From positions 62,001 through 126,000 of the forward strand of contig NZ_JARUKV010000011.1 in assembly GCF_029688865.1 (NCBI RefSeq): a stretch of DNA of 64,000 bases. Reading direction: 5' to 3'. Of the stretch, positions 3,571 to 20,629 are shown piece after piece. Each line of letters starts with the position of its first letter. Position 1 is the first letter of the stretch. A program made the translations under genes and the position numbers. The stretch is from Natronococcus sp. A-GB7 (GTDB lineage Archaea; Halobacteriota; Halobacteria; Halobacteriales; Natrialbaceae). The notes under the pieces were generated by a model, which did no database searches, was not told the DNA's origin, and worked only from the letters and a program-made list of their open reading frames with translations.

Positions 3571-5538
3571 CTAGATCTCGGAGACGACGTCGTGGCTCTG
3601 TGCGAGCTGTTCGGCGTCCTCGTCGAGCAGCGCCACGACGAGGTAGGGTGCGTACGACTCGAAGTACTCGACCAGCGCCGTGATCCGCTCTGCGTCGATC
3701 GCCTCGAGGGAGTCGAGCAGCATGAACGGCACCGTCTCGTAGACGTCGTGGACGAGGTATCCCGCCAGCGCGAAGACCAGTCCCGTCACCTCGCGTTCGC
3801 TCTCGCTTAGGTGTTCGATCGCGTCCTCGTAGGCCGCGCCCTCTTCGGTACTGCGGACGATCTTGAGGTCGAACGACGATCGAGTGACCTTCCGGCGGCC
3901 CTCGCGGACCTCTCGCGTGGTGCGGTCGATCCAGATCCGATCGAGGTTGCTGTACCCCAGCGTCTCGAGGAGGTTCTCCATGTGTTCGTTGAACGCCTCG
4001 ACGGCGTCCTCCTCGATGCGGTCGATACGAGTCCGCAGATCGGTCAGCTCCTCGGTCGCCTGCTCGCGGCGGCTCTCGAGGCCCTCACGCTCGCCGAGGC
4101 GGTCTTCGACGTCGACGATCTCGTCTTCGATCTCGTCGCGCTCGCGCTCCTTGCGCTCGAGTTCGAACTCGAGCTGGTTGACCTCGCGGTGCTGTTCGAG
4201 GATGTCCTCGGAGCCGTCGCTCTCGAGGTCGTCGATCTCGCTTTCGAGATCGTCGATCTCCTCGGTGAGCGATTCCCGTTCGTCGGTGAGGTCGTCGATC
4301 CGGTCGCGACGGCGCTCGATCTCGTCGTCGATCGAGTCGAGCCGGCGATCCGCTCGGTCGTACTCCGTTCGATTCTCGTTGATCTCGGTCAGCGTCGCCC
4401 GCTTCTCGTCGAGTTCGTCGTCGATCGCCGAACGCTCCTCGAGTCGGTCCTGGTGGACCCCACGAAGCTGCTCGAGCGTGCTCTCGATCTGTTCGGTGGC
4501 GACCGACGAGCCACAGGTCCAGCAGGTGACTGTCTCGGAGTCGCTGTCGGCCAGTAGCTGGTCCGTAACGGCGCCACCGTTGTGTTCGTGATCGTCGTCG
4601 CCGAGGAACTCCCCGGCCTCCTCGAGTAGCCGTTCGTTGAACTGAACCGTCCGCTGGAGCTGCGAGATCTCCTCGTTGAGACCGTCCTTCTGGGACTGCA
4701 GGGAGTCGATCTCGGCCTCTAGGCGGCCGACGTCGGCTTCCTCGCCCGTCGAGAGCTCCTCGAGTTGCGCTTCGACCTCTTCGCGTTCGTCCTCGAGGGC
4801 CTCGATGCTCTCGCGTTCGGTATCGATCCGGTCCCGGGTGCGCTCGAGGTCGGATCGAGTCCCGCGGAGTTCGTCCAGCTTCGTCTCGAGTTCGGAGCGC
4901 TCCTCGCGGCGGGTCTCGACGTCGACGTTCGTCGCCTCGAGCTGTGCTTCGGCCTCCTCGAGCTCCTCGCGGAGCGACTCGATCTCGTCGCTCACCCGCG
5001 TCCGCTTCGCCTCGAGGTCGGGAAGTCGATCCTCGAGATCGTCGAGTTCGTCGAGTTCGGCGTCGATACGCTGCTTTCGCTGCTCGAGTTGCTGGATCTC
5101 GGCTTTGATCGCGTCGGTGTCGACCGGGCGCATGATCAGGTCTCGGAGCTCGTCGCCCCGAGCGACGGCTCGGCGCGCTTCGTTGGACTCGAGCAAGAAC
5201 GCGAACAGATCCGCCAGCTCCGGATCGTCGAGGTAGGGGTCGCCCTCCCTGACGACGGTCCCGTTGCGCCGGTGGAGGGTCTGGCGGTACGTCTCGTCGC
5301 CGAACTCGAGGACGGCCTCGCCTTCCTTCGCGTCGGCCTTGAGGCTCGCGCGGTCGCTGCCAAGCGCGGCCATGATCCCCTGGAGCAGCGACGTTCTATT
5401 GGTTGCGTTTCGGCCGGAGAGCACGGTGATCCCCTGCTGGAACGGGACGGTCGTCTCCTCGATGCCGCCGATGTTGCTTACCGAGAGCGTCGTCTGGTCG
5501 GGAGTCTCTCGATTCGATACGTTCTGGCTCGTCTTCAT
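3571..5538 (-). CDS. sph3: Archaea-specific SMC-related (Sph3-like) coiled-coil ATPase
   Basis: A 655-residue Rad50/SMC-like protein. An N-terminal head has the P-loop-like GRNATNRTSLLQ, in which the usual GK is replaced by NR. Long, very acidic coiled coils follow (about 130-330 and 360-540). A CWTC zinc-hook motif lies between them near residue 341, and a C-terminal half has LSESEREVTG and a Walker-B-like FMLLDSLEAID. In Haloferax volcanii a homologue (Sph3) is encoded next to rdfA, as here (69 bases apart, same strand). The partner gene acts in cell shape, so a role in shape or chromosome organisation is inferred. The ATG at 5538 is used; the longer frame adds unlikely residues. Confidence 0.85.
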   Translation of the reverse strand: MKTSQNVSNRETPDQTTLSVSNIGGIEETTVPFQQGITVLSGRNATNRTSLLQGIMAALGSDRASLKADAKEGEAVLEFGDETYRQTLHRRNGTVVREGDPYLDDPELADLFAFLLESNEARRAVARGDELRDLIMRPVDTDAIKAEIQQLEQRKQRIDAELDELDDLEDRLPDLEAKRTRVSDEIESLREELEEAEAQLEATNVDVETRREERSELETKLDELRGTRSDLERTRDRIDTERESIEALEDEREEVEAQLEELSTGEEADVGRLEAEIDSLQSQKDGLNEEISQLQRTVQFNERLLEEAGEFLGDDDHEHNGGAVTDQLLADSDSETVTCWTCGSSVATEQIESTLEQLRGVHQDRLEERSAIDDELDEKRATLTEINENRTEYDRADRRLDSIDDEIERRRDRIDDLTDERESLTEEIDDLESEIDDLESDGSEDILEQHREVNQLEFELERKERERDEIEDEIVDVEDRLGEREGLESRREQATEELTDLRTRIDRIEEDAVEAFNEHMENLLETLGYSNLDRIWIDRTTREVREGRRKVTRSSFDLKIVRSTEEGAAYEDAIEHLSESEREVTGLVFALAGYLVHDVYETVPFMLLDSLEAIDAERITALVEYFESYAPYLVVALLDEDAEQLAQSHDVVSEI

Positions 5539-17986: not shown

Positions 17987-18037
17987 TTTAAGTATCTCTG
18001 GCAACAAGGTAGAGATACGACGGGAAGTCGTCGTTCT
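17987..18037 (+). repeat. TTTAAGT element, copy 1
   Basis: TTTAAGT at 17987 is followed by a core with CTCTGG, ACAAGGT and GAGAT. Next comes the hairpin ACGAC-GGGAA-GTCGT (18017-18029), a perfect 5-bp stem. The position equivalent to the ATG of copies 2-4 reads ACG here. No gene follows closely; the next gene starts at 18243 and has its own copy in front. Confidence 0.75.
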
Positions 18038-18111
18038 CGGAGGACTCTAAACTCGTGGAGCCTCGCGTCCGCTGTCCAGTCGTTTCGAGAGGGATCCGCG
18101 AGCGATCGTTC

Positions 18112-18163
18112 TTTAAGTGCCTCTGGTCACAAGGTGGAGCTATGACGGGAAGTCGGTCGTTCT
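18112..18163 (+). repeat. TTTAAGT element, copy 2 (upstream of nucleotidyltransferase)
   Basis: TTTAAGT at 18112 and the core CTCTGGTCACAAGGTGGAGC lead to ATGACGGGAAGTCGG at 18142, exactly 30 bases from the first T of the TATA-like box. The nucleotidyltransferase gene begins 101 bases further on, so this copy may be its promoter and leader. The ATG could open a 32-codon frame ending at 18240. Confidence 0.75.
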
Positions 18164-18242
18164 TCGGTTCTCAGATTGTCCGTAGCTACGCGTCTCGAAC
18201 GGGCTCGAGATCAGCGGATACGGAAAGCGACACACAGTAGCG

Positions 18243-19163
18243 ATGGCATCGATCCCCAGCCACGTACGCGAGACGATCGATTCACACCTGGACGAGATCG
18301 AACGCGTCCGGGCAGTGTCGATCGTCCTGGCGGTCGCCCGCGGAAGCCACGCCTGGGGTGGAGCGGGACCCGACAGCGACTACGACGTCGGCTTCGTCTA
18401 CGCACCAACCGACCTCCGGCGGTACGCCCACCTCGGCGGCCTCGAGGGGGTGTGCCTCGAGGAGCGCGAGGAGTTCGAGTACCAGGGCTGGGACGTCCGC
18501 AAGTTCGCCGCGCTGCTTGCCGACTCGAACGACGGCGCGATCGATATTCTCAGGAGCCCGGTCCGGTACCGAACGCGCTACGATCCCGATCCGCTTGCCG
18601 ACTACGTCGAGCGGACGTACAACCCGATCGACCTCTACCACGCCTGGCGCGGAATCGCGACGAACAACTACCGGAAGTACCTCTCGGAGCACCTGGTTCG
18701 GACCGACGACGAGACGTTCCCGATCCTCGAGCATCGCGACGGCGAGTACGTCGTCGAAACCGAGGACGGGACGGCGACCGTCGCCGCGGACGACGAACGG
18801 TTCAGCGAGACGGCGACGCGGCCGACGGTCAAACGGAACCTGACCGTGACTCGCGCCGCGATGGCCGCGCGCTACCTGCAGGCAACGGGCGAACGAGGCG
18901 ACCACGAACTGCCCGCACTCGAGTTCGAGCGCTTCCTGGACGAGCAGGCACCCGCGGTGTTCGACGCCGAACGGCTCGACCGCGCTCGGAATCTCCTCGA
19001 GCGAAAGCGCGCCGGCGAGGGCGGCGTCCGGATCGGCGACGCGGTCGGTCGTGCGTTCGCCCACCCACCGAAGCGTATCGATCCGGCGGTGCACGCTCGA
19101 GACGGCCCCGATCGAGAGCGACTGAACGGGTTCGTCGACGAGATGCTCGCGGCGGGGCGCTGA
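18243..19163 (+). CDS. Predicted nucleotidyltransferase (COG3541-like)
   Basis: A 306-residue protein of the polymerase-beta nucleotidyltransferase superfamily. The active-site motif ARGSHAWGGAGPDSDYDVGF (residues 33-52) supplies the GS and D-x-D. The downstream YEGWD-like FEYQGWDVRKFAALL resembles the COG3541 family, whose members may adenylylate a protein or RNA; the target is unknown. It is flanked by TTTAAGT elements on both sides (18112 and 19183). The start at 18243 gives a normal N-terminus. Confidence 0.8.
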   Translation: MASIPSHVRETIDSHLDEIERVRAVSIVLAVARGSHAWGGAGPDSDYDVGFVYAPTDLRRYAHLGGLEGVCLEEREEFEYQGWDVRKFAALLADSNDGAIDILRSPVRYRTRYDPDPLADYVERTYNPIDLYHAWRGIATNNYRKYLSEHLVRTDDETFPILEHRDGEYVVETEDGTATVAADDERFSETATRPTVKRNLTVTRAAMAARYLQATGERGDHELPALEFERFLDEQAPAVFDAERLDRARNLLERKRAGEGGVRIGDAVGRAFAHPPKRIDPAVHARDGPDRERLNGFVDEMLAAGR

Positions 19164-19182
19164 TGCGGCGTTCCGATCCGTC

Positions 19183-19234
19183 TTTAAGTGTCTCTGGTCA
19201 CAAGGTAGAGCTATGACGGGAAGTCGGCCGTTCT
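19183..19234 (+). repeat. TTTAAGT element, copy 3
   Basis: It begins 20 bases after the nucleotidyltransferase stop. TTTAAGT at 19183 is 30 bases from ATGACGGGAAGTCGG at 19213. The core between them is nearly identical to copies 2 and 4. The ATG opens only a 10-residue frame (MTGSRPFYEF), and no gene follows for 640 bases. Confidence 0.75.
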
Positions 19235-19300
19235 ACGAGTTTTGATCCCCTCCAGCGAAGCGACCGTCCTCCTCGAGACCGCAGGTTACACTCTACTTCG

Positions 19301-19336
19301 TGGAATCCTCGCCCTTTAGGGCGGGGAGGATGTCAA
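19301..19336 (+). mobile_element. IS200/IS605-type right-end hairpin / omega-RNA-like remnant
   Basis: The stem CCTCGCCC-TTTA-GGGCGGGG is followed by AGGATGTCAA, which resembles the conserved 3' end of TnpB guide RNAs and the right end of IS605-family elements as I remember them. No tnpA or tnpB gene is present, so this is either a decayed element end or a solitary guide-RNA relic. The bases immediately after it (TAGTTCCGATCACGAG) would be the guide or target flank. Confidence 0.5.
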
Positions 19337-19455
19337 GTAGTTCCGATCACGAGATCAAGCTGCGACGGGCGGGCTTGCCTCTCCGGGCTTCGAAGTCTAC
19401 CGGTGGGTGAACGATTCGAACGCTCGCGACGACTCACTCGAGCGACCATCCGTTC

Positions 19456-19507
19456 TTTAAGTAGCTCTGGTCACAAGGTGGAGCTATGACGGGAAGTCGG
19501 CCGTTCT
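19456..19507 (+). repeat. TTTAAGT element, copy 4
   Basis: TTTAAGT at 19456 and a core identical to copy 2 lead to ATGACGGGAAGTCGG at 19486, again 30 bases from the box. The ATG opens a 21-residue frame (MTGSRPFYRARYSSSGRYSDR). No annotated gene follows until 19856. Confidence 0.75.
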
Positions 19508-19695
19508 ACCGCGCTCGATACTCCTCCAGCGGCCGCTACTCCGATCGATAGCCCCGGGAAACGAGTCTGGCAGTAAGAGATGGGATTTCGACGGGGCGCT
19601 GTTCTGTCGACCGCTATCGAACACGGCAGCGCTGTCGTCAACGGTATCACCGGTCCCCTACTCACATGAGATCGACGCGACGAGCCGCGCGTCTC

Positions 19696-19735
19696 TTTAA
19701 GTGGCTCTGGTCACAAGGTGAAGCTACGAAGGGCT
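19696..19735 (+). repeat. TTTAAGT element, copy 5 (upstream of RNA polymerase epsilon)
   Basis: TTTAAGT at 19696 and the core GCTCTGGTCACAAGGTGAAG are conserved, but the equivalent of the ATG reads ACG and the sequence after it (ACGAAGGGC) has diverged. The next gene starts at 19856, so this copy could be its promoter with a leader of about 130 nt. Confidence 0.7.
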
Positions 19736-19855
19736 TTTGCGGGCCGTTGCTCTCGGATCGATCGTACTCCGGAGAGACTCATCAGCCGGTTTACTGGTCT
19801 CGAGGCGGGTGAAACGAGCAAGTCTTTTTCCGTCTCCCGGTCTGAGCGACACACG

Positions 19856-20629
19856 ATGTACGACGGTGTTGACTCCGGGCCAGCCCTCCAGCGGGAGTCC
19901 GCCCCCGACGGCCTCGAGGAGGACCGTCGCCTCGAGACGCGTCCCGGCTCCGGGGCGCTCTCCCGGGCGGACGTCCAGCGCGACTCGACCGTCCGCCAGT
20001 GGGGCGTCGTCACCCCGAGCGCGACCGTCATCGGGCGTGCGGATTCGCCCGAAGCGGATCTCCCCGAAAGCGTTCGACGGCTCCACGACGAACAGCACGG
20101 CGCGACGCCTGGGTACAGCGAGCGCGCCCACAGACTCGACCGACTGCGAACGACCCAGGCGCTGTGTAACGCCCTCGATCTGACGCCGTGGCAGCGGGAT
20201 CTCGCGCTCGGCGTGATGGACGAAATCGACCTCACCGAGTTCGGCAGCCAGCGCGCGATCCCGAAGGTCGCGCTGGTCGTCATCCGCCACGTCGTCGACG
20301 TCGATCGGCGGACGTACTTCGGCCTCGACGAGGTCGACGTCTCCGAGCTCTCCCCCGATCGGATGGACGAGCTGTTCGGTCAGTACCGCGCCCACGATAT
20401 CACCGACGAGGAGACGTTCAAGCGCCTCGCCGCCGATCACGGGCTCGACACGACGAGCCTGAACCGCCTCCGACGCGTGCTGAAGGCCCAGCTCGAGGAC
20501 GAGCTGCCCGCCTACGGGCGTAACCCCTACCGGGACCCGAACCTGCCGAGCCTCGAGGACCGAGCCGACGAGGAGTCGGTCGACGCGACCGCGAAGGGAG
20601 CGACCGACGATCCGGATACCCCCGAGTAG
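19856..20629 (+). CDS. DNA-directed RNA polymerase subunit epsilon (haloarchaeal)
   Basis: A 257-residue protein matching the haloarchaeal 'epsilon' RNA polymerase subunit. It has WGVVTPSATVIGRADSPEAD, LPESVRRLHDEQHG, TQALCNALDLTPWQRD and FGSQRAIPKVALVVI. The subunit is confined to halophilic archaea and its exact role in the polymerase is unclear. The first 45 residues are variable and charged. It is preceded by element copy 5 and a leader of about 130 nt, unusual in a genome where many transcripts are leaderless. The ATG at 19856 begins MYDGVD, the usual start. Confidence 0.88.
   Translation: MYDGVDSGPALQRESAPDGLEEDRRLETRPGSGALSRADVQRDSTVRQWGVVTPSATVIGRADSPEADLPESVRRLHDEQHGATPGYSERAHRLDRLRTTQALCNALDLTPWQRDLALGVMDEIDLTEFGSQRAIPKVALVVIRHVVDVDRRTYFGLDEVDVSELSPDRMDELFGQYRAHDITDEETFKRLAADHGLDTTSLNRLRRVLKAQLEDELPAYGRNPYRDPNLPSLEDRADEESVDATAKGATDDPDTPE

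Follow-up and report, generated by a model that had tools for sequence, protein, structure and literature searches.

A haloarchaeal family of TTTAAGT elements coupled to RNA polymerase subunit epsilon: candidate extended promoters for short RNAs

A 39-base element occurs five times on one strand of a 64,000-nucleotide stretch of Natronococcus sp. A-GB7 DNA (the window), the last copy lying directly 5' of a gene for RNA polymerase subunit epsilon. The element belongs to a haloarchaeal family that is coupled to epsilon in presence, position and type, and distant relatives of epsilon are paired with related elements of their own. We lean, a little beyond even chances, towards reading the five copies as haloarchaeal extended promoters of short RNAs that would be transcribed by an epsilon-bearing polymerase. 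The link between the element and epsilon is new relative to the original prediction, which had noted the five copies from the letters of the window.

Five copies of one element in the window

As originally predicted, TTTAAGT begins at 17987, 18112, 19183, 19456 and 19696, in all cases on the + strand (n = 5). The copies share the 39-base consensus TTTAAGTnnYTCTGGTCACAAGGTGnAGcTAYGAcGGGA with rigid spacing. The features of this region are the following.

17987..18025, + strand: element copy 1 (TTTAAGTATCTCTGGCAACAAGGTAGAGATACGACGGGA); predicted +1 at 18017; matrix score 64.2
18017..18085, + strand: putative short transcript of copy 1, drawn from TATA-to-start spacing and unit length; 3' boundary provisional
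18112..18150, + strand: element copy 2; predicted +1 at 18142; ~101 nt 5' of the RlaP ATG; matrix score 72.5
18243..19163, + strand: gene for the nucleotidyltransferase RlaP (PF10127), flanked by copies 2 and 3
19183..19221, + strand: element copy 3; predicted +1 at 19213; matrix score 66.4
19213..19290, + strand: short transcript predicted for copy 3; 3' boundary provisional
19456..19494, + strand: element copy 4; predicted +1 at 19486; GTTCT and CAGC boxes 3' of the element; matrix score 69.5
19486..19565, + strand: short transcript predicted for copy 4; 3' boundary provisional
19696..19734, + strand: element copy 5, ACGAAGGGC type; predicted +1 at 19726; closest to epsilon; matrix score 67.4
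19726..19800, + strand: short transcript predicted for copy 5; 3' boundary provisional
19856..20629, + strand: RNA polymerase subunit epsilon gene (257 aa), directly 3' of copy 5

A distance of 30 bases from the first base of TTTAAGT to an ATG had been described for copies 2 to 4 (18112 to 18142, 19183 to 19213 and 19456 to 19486). The distance is exact in these copies and holds in all five, the triplet in copies 1 and 5 being ACG.

With up to 3 mismatches allowed, the core of the element matches the 64 kb only at 18121, 19192, 19465 and 19705, against 0 matches expected; the core of copy 1, CTCTGGCAACAAGGTAGAGA, is more diverged and falls outside this set. A weight matrix built from 186 elements, whose training loci had been found by pattern, scores the five copies at 64-72 and nothing in shuffled windows above 5. 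The four core matches and the matrix scores together exclude a chance origin. Matches to the relaxed pattern TTTAAGT-N11/12-CAA in the window are the five copies only, and an Rfam search of the window returned seven tRNA genes only, none of them close to the elements.

Two further copies are found elsewhere in the same genome, on contigs C33 and C41. Compared by eye, these copies (loci L005 and L006) are near-identical over ~75-100 nt after the element and have little likeness before it, which suggests that the element and its putative transcript were duplicated as one unit. In genome G010, an MptA-linked array and an RlaP/epsilon-linked array (L081, L080) lie ~48 kb apart; the two are contiguous in the window, as if the array had been split by rearrangement at the repeats.

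Conservation of the element across haloarchaea

The original prediction had proposed a search for the core in haloarchaeal genomes. Of 125 genomes from the same family (Natrialbaceae), 103 contain the motif, and one pattern finds it in 123 of the 342 genomes of the order; the reversed pattern occurs in 0 genomes of either set. The element is also found in several other haloarchaeal families. Genomes contain ~1-13 copies, with arrays at one locus.

Among 379 non-redundant elements, the conserved block extends from position 0 to 38 and reads TTTAAGTgctTCTGGtcACAAGGtg.AGaTAcGA.gGga. In a canonical haloarchaeal basal promoter a TATA-type box stands about 24-30 nt before the start. In the elements TTTAAGT hardly varies and a purine follows it at 30 nt; position 30 is an A in nearly all of them. 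The transcription start is predicted from this spacing, and with position 30 as +1 the block would cover about -30 to +9, including the region that is melted at initiation. Conservation falls sharply after about +10. A canonical basal promoter has no extended conserved sequence between the TATA box and the start; in the elements this interval is conserved at up to 2 bits per position, in agreement with the earlier remark that its conservation in the window was unusual. A CGAAA BRE has been cited for haloarchaea (PMC4983044), but no CGAAA-like BRE was found 5' of the TATA box in the 379 elements, which have instead a weak consensus of a pyrimidine-rich TTC plus a CCG at element positions -10 to -8.

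An ATG is present at +1 in only 92 of the 379 elements, and the open reading frames that begin there are as long as those in shuffled tails. Leaderless small protein genes or mini-ORFs were rejected on these grounds, and the claim that coding is not the conserved feature, made initially from the ACG triplets of copies 1 and 5, extends to the family.

Epsilon as the most recurrent neighbor

Besides the window we sampled 20 element-bearing loci, all chosen for having elements. The most recurrent neighbor was epsilon, which adjoins elements in 15 of the 20. The 257-aa protein encoded next to copy 5 is matched by no Pfam or NCBIfam model. Plasmids of Halorussus, Halococcus, and Halocatena encode relatives under the name 'DNA-directed RNA polymerase subunit epsilon' that are 55-60% identical to it (58-60% for the best of these annotated copies), and the homolog in Halobacterium salinarum DSM 3754 is 68% identical. 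Judged by its sequence, the window protein belongs to the haloarchaeal RNA polymerase subunit epsilon family, the same family as the known epsilon of Halobacterium salinarum (rpoeps, OE_1279R).

A 2021 review describes epsilon as present in a subset of haloarchaea and calls its relevance enigmatic (PMC8305020). As relayed in that review, co-purification of epsilon with RNA polymerase has been reported for Halobacterium, and a 1983 paper found that the Halobacterium polymerase together with epsilon transcribes native DNA efficiently (PMC8305020). Our search of the literature returned neither the core sequence nor anything on epsilon-specific promoters, and no promoter class or RNA tied to epsilon.

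A structure model of epsilon (mean pLDDT 66.9) has a helical core at about residues 87-212. Foldseek searches with this model returned only non-significant matches, several of them to cyclin, TFIIB, and sigma folds, each of these with E above 0.2, and a search against solved structures returned nothing. Profile comparison with TFB was not significant either (hhalign E 0.38), and there was no Pfam TFIIB match. Since neither the Foldseek matches nor the TFB comparison reached significance, the fold of epsilon provides no evidence either way.

Co-occurrence of element and epsilon

In a sample of 195 genomes, 70 had both element and epsilon, 1 had the element only, 26 had epsilon only, and 98 had neither (Fisher p about 1e-29, a value that ignores the kinship of these related genomes). 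Epsilon is present in 70 of the 71 element-bearing genomes, and the lone element-only genome, G262, in which no epsilon was detected, is 87% complete. Inspection of the 26 apparent epsilon-only genomes revealed an element beside epsilon in 25, of which 17 were matched by the weight matrix and 8 were of variant type, bringing the epsilon genomes with an element to 95 of 96. At two loci, L133 and L287, epsilon is present and no element was found nearby. In a second sample, epsilon was found in 9 of 9 element genomes, and full-length epsilon in 0 of 18 or 19 element-free genomes, one short weak match being disregarded. Most sampled members of the family to which Haloferax volcanii belongs are without epsilon. 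The pattern is also seen within a single genus, g11, where two species (G030 and G032) have both element and epsilon while three (G029, G031, and G033) have neither.

In named genomes, elements are found at 73 of 80 epsilon loci, including that of Halobacterium salinarum DSM 3754, and at most of these an element lies 120-450 nt 5' of epsilon on the same strand. The Halobacterium salinarum epsilon locus has elements at positions 5066 and 5880 of L205. Some of the seven epsilon loci without an element are cut by contig ends. In the Natrinema group a separate promoter-like stretch, itself conserved, precedes the ATG of epsilon, and at several loci elements are located 3' of epsilon or point away from it, so the elements are not merely the promoter of epsilon.

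Element types follow epsilon types

A diverged epsilon clade that spans several families has an element of its own, CAACGGYTCRTAGTGA, which we call type B to distinguish it from the type A of the window. Natrialbaceae genus g2 and part of g11 (g7 is less clear) are without the window type and have a diverged epsilon together with the variant TTTAAGTGCTTCTCGYGACAACGGYTCRTAGTGAGG. In the epsilon tree, type B occurs only inside one clade (support 0.91) and type A only outside it. This clade also holds members of families f7 and f8, and its Natrialbaceae genera have type-A relatives. The element therefore goes with the lineage of epsilon and not with the family of the host. Type-B variants and the paralog elements described next were outside the weight-matrix training set, and the search for type-B-like elements in epsilon-free genomes covered a few genomes.

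Distant epsilon-like proteins are roughly 30-40% identical to epsilon, several are plasmid-borne, and where annotated they are called hypothetical. TTTAAGT-N11/12-CAA is present at 15 of 22 paralog loci; in resampled or shuffled sequence the number averages 0.33 and never exceeds 2. The central sequence of these elements varies by group, the recurring parts being TTTAAGT, CAA, and a GARGGG start rich in purines. For one paralog group, a small set, the predicted transcript folds strongly, with an MFE of -33 to -51 in 85 nt and a few compensatory changes; in another, also small, there is a short hairpin with partial covariation. A strongly structured putative RNA of the GGUCGUCGGUCGUCGGUUCCGCCAUAAGGCGGAGCGACGGCC type lies by small epsilon paralogs at L331-L333, L335, L338, L322, and L291. 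Rfam had no match above the gathering threshold at paralog loci L323, L327, and L331.

The transcribed side of the element

Tandem copies are spaced with a peak at 110-140 nt and a minimum of 108 nt. Within +9 to +31, 264 of the 379 elements have TTCT, where control stretches of the same width have it in ~40 of 379; for GTTCT the counts are 145 and 15. A (Y)AGC box follows 21-24 nt beyond the GTTCT/TTCT box, and in a transcript the two boxes would read GUUCUC and AGC. With this spacing minimum, these boxes, and open reading frames no longer than in shuffled sequence, the element unit resembles a promoter joined to a short stretch that is transcribed and non-coding. The first reading of the window had offered two alternatives, either a family of small RNAs whose 5' ends are identical or a single regulator that binds all five of the promoters. 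The 108-nt unit minimum, the boxes, and the structured RNAs predicted behind paralogous elements favor the small RNAs, and the comparative evidence as a whole points to both halves together, with epsilon as the proposed factor, and away from a choice between them.

No stable RNA fold above chimeric controls was seen in the main family. A 5'-terminal hairpin was considered there and dropped, its signal being inconsistent (z about 5, then a small excess, then z 2.6-2.9) and half-swap folds being no better than chimeras. A stem between the GTTCT and AGC boxes gave no signal in the main family. Between the element and the RlaP ATG, the RlaP leader is conserved in most of loci L144-L156; its sequence ACGAAGGGCATTCGTCACCCGGTCTTCTCG is a short hairpin without mismatches, placed where transcription is predicted to begin.

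A fairly unlikely account of these data is that the elements are ordinary strong promoters and that the small RNA binds epsilon or the epsilon-bearing polymerase, like bacterial 6S, in which case the coupling would reflect an RNA-protein complex and not promoter recognition. The GUUCUC and AGC boxes conserved on the transcribed side, the strongly structured RNAs beside epsilon paralogs, and the tandem units of at least 108 nt are all consistent with such a complex. However, the best conservation runs from the TATA box to +9, and most of this lies 5' of the predicted start. In the main family the body of the RNA is poorly conserved and not significantly folded. An RNA partner alone leaves the fixed untranscribed bases unexplained.

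Other neighbors and alternative functions

We considered RlaP as a functional partner, since its gene is present once and often lies within the array, but two genera that have elements, g9 and g24, lack it; in addition, g2 genomes have RlaP with type-B elements only, and RlaP is far from epsilon in G001. DsbA adjoins only some arrays. The distribution of neighbors bears on a further possibility, which we regard as quite unlikely, that the core is an operator bound by a separate regulator, or by epsilon as a repressor of its own region, the downstream part being incidental. Rigid spacing and conservation at the DNA level would be expected of an operator, and an element shortly 5' of epsilon in most genomes is what autoregulation would produce. 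Against this, neither RlaP nor DsbA nor any other neighbor fits the phyletic pattern, and a bare operator needs neither a minimum unit length nor transcribed boxes.

In nearly all of 14 Natrinema-group loci the RlaP ATG is ~86-105 nt after an element, and no second TATA-like box was seen before the ATG in these loci. In the Halorussus-type loci L043, L046-L052, and L054, an element precedes an apparent menA prenyltransferase gene in 9 of 9; this menA has its own conserved upstream sequence, promoter-like by eye. Positions of this kind are what would be predicted if the elements were tandem promoters of protein genes (epsilon, RlaP, menA) with long leaders and no independent small RNA. We give this little credence for the family as a whole, because Natrinema-group epsilon and, by eye, menA have promoter-like sequences of their own, annotated plasmid copies often have no co-directional gene 3' of the element (some do), and tandem copies follow each other without an intervening gene.

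A stem-loop at 19302-19340 of the window, CCTCGCCCTTTAGGGCGGGGAGGATGTCAAG, resembles an IS200/IS605-type end and lies near copy 3; it has five further matches in the genome, including one on contig C33 that is ~130-160 bp away from the element there. Apart from this proximity there is little to recommend mobile-element ends or chance repeats, an extremely improbable reading already contradicted by the epsilon coupling, since the elements track epsilon and not transposases, show no obvious inverted repeats at their ends, no adjacent transposase, and no large number of scattered copies such as an insertion sequence would have, share a single orientation in most arrays, never occur as the reversed pattern, and had no exact match to two lineage patterns among 2.9 million viral contigs. 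An origin as an insertion-sequence end, which the original prediction had itself raised, is thus not supported.

A proposed role for epsilon in promoter selection

We return to the reading that we favor, in which the elements are extended promoters driving short non-coding RNAs and, at places like RlaP, probably a gene leader. TTTAAGT would be the TATA box, and the rigid 32 bases after it (about -23 to +9) would provide an extra recognition surface, in which ACAA at -13 to -10 hardly varies and AYGANGGGA, predicted to be transcribed first, is conserved. A polymerase carrying epsilon, or epsilon itself, would read this surface around the melting zone. The coupling in presence, position, and type suggests epsilon as the factor recognizing these promoters, from which small RNAs would be made. 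Epsilon would then act alongside TBP/TFB as a dedicated, sigma-like promoter-selectivity factor whose target RNA genes are clustered at its own locus. More tentatively, and with somewhat less than even confidence, we propose that epsilon and its often plasmid-borne paralogs may be sigma-like factors unrelated to TFB, each dedicated to a few small-RNA genes through an extended promoter of its own that would be read around the melting region.

If true, this would be in effect a specialized archaeal RNA polymerase for non-coding RNA. The pairing names candidate target promoters of epsilon and predicts their start sites to the base, and types A, B, and the paralog types are natural variants for swap experiments. 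Confirmation would extend archaeal promoter selectivity beyond TBP/TFB and add a new small-RNA family.

Comparison with known systems

Bacterial 6S RNA is a small RNA that acts with RNA polymerase, which is one possible role for the putative RNAs described here; unlike 6S, they have no Rfam match in the window or at the three paralog loci searched, and the main family is without a 6S-like fold. The multiple TFB and TBP proteins of haloarchaea are similar in that promoter selection by sets of initiation factors has been proposed for them, but epsilon is not a detectable TFB and the elements are without the CGAAA BRE (PMC4983044). Bacterial sigma factors differ in that epsilon has no demonstrated sequence homology to them, the elements keep an archaeal TATA box, and the targets look non-coding. 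What the epsilon system would share with bacterial alternative sigma and ECF factors is an accessory polymerase component with a cognate promoter by its own gene, the type of which changes with the clade.
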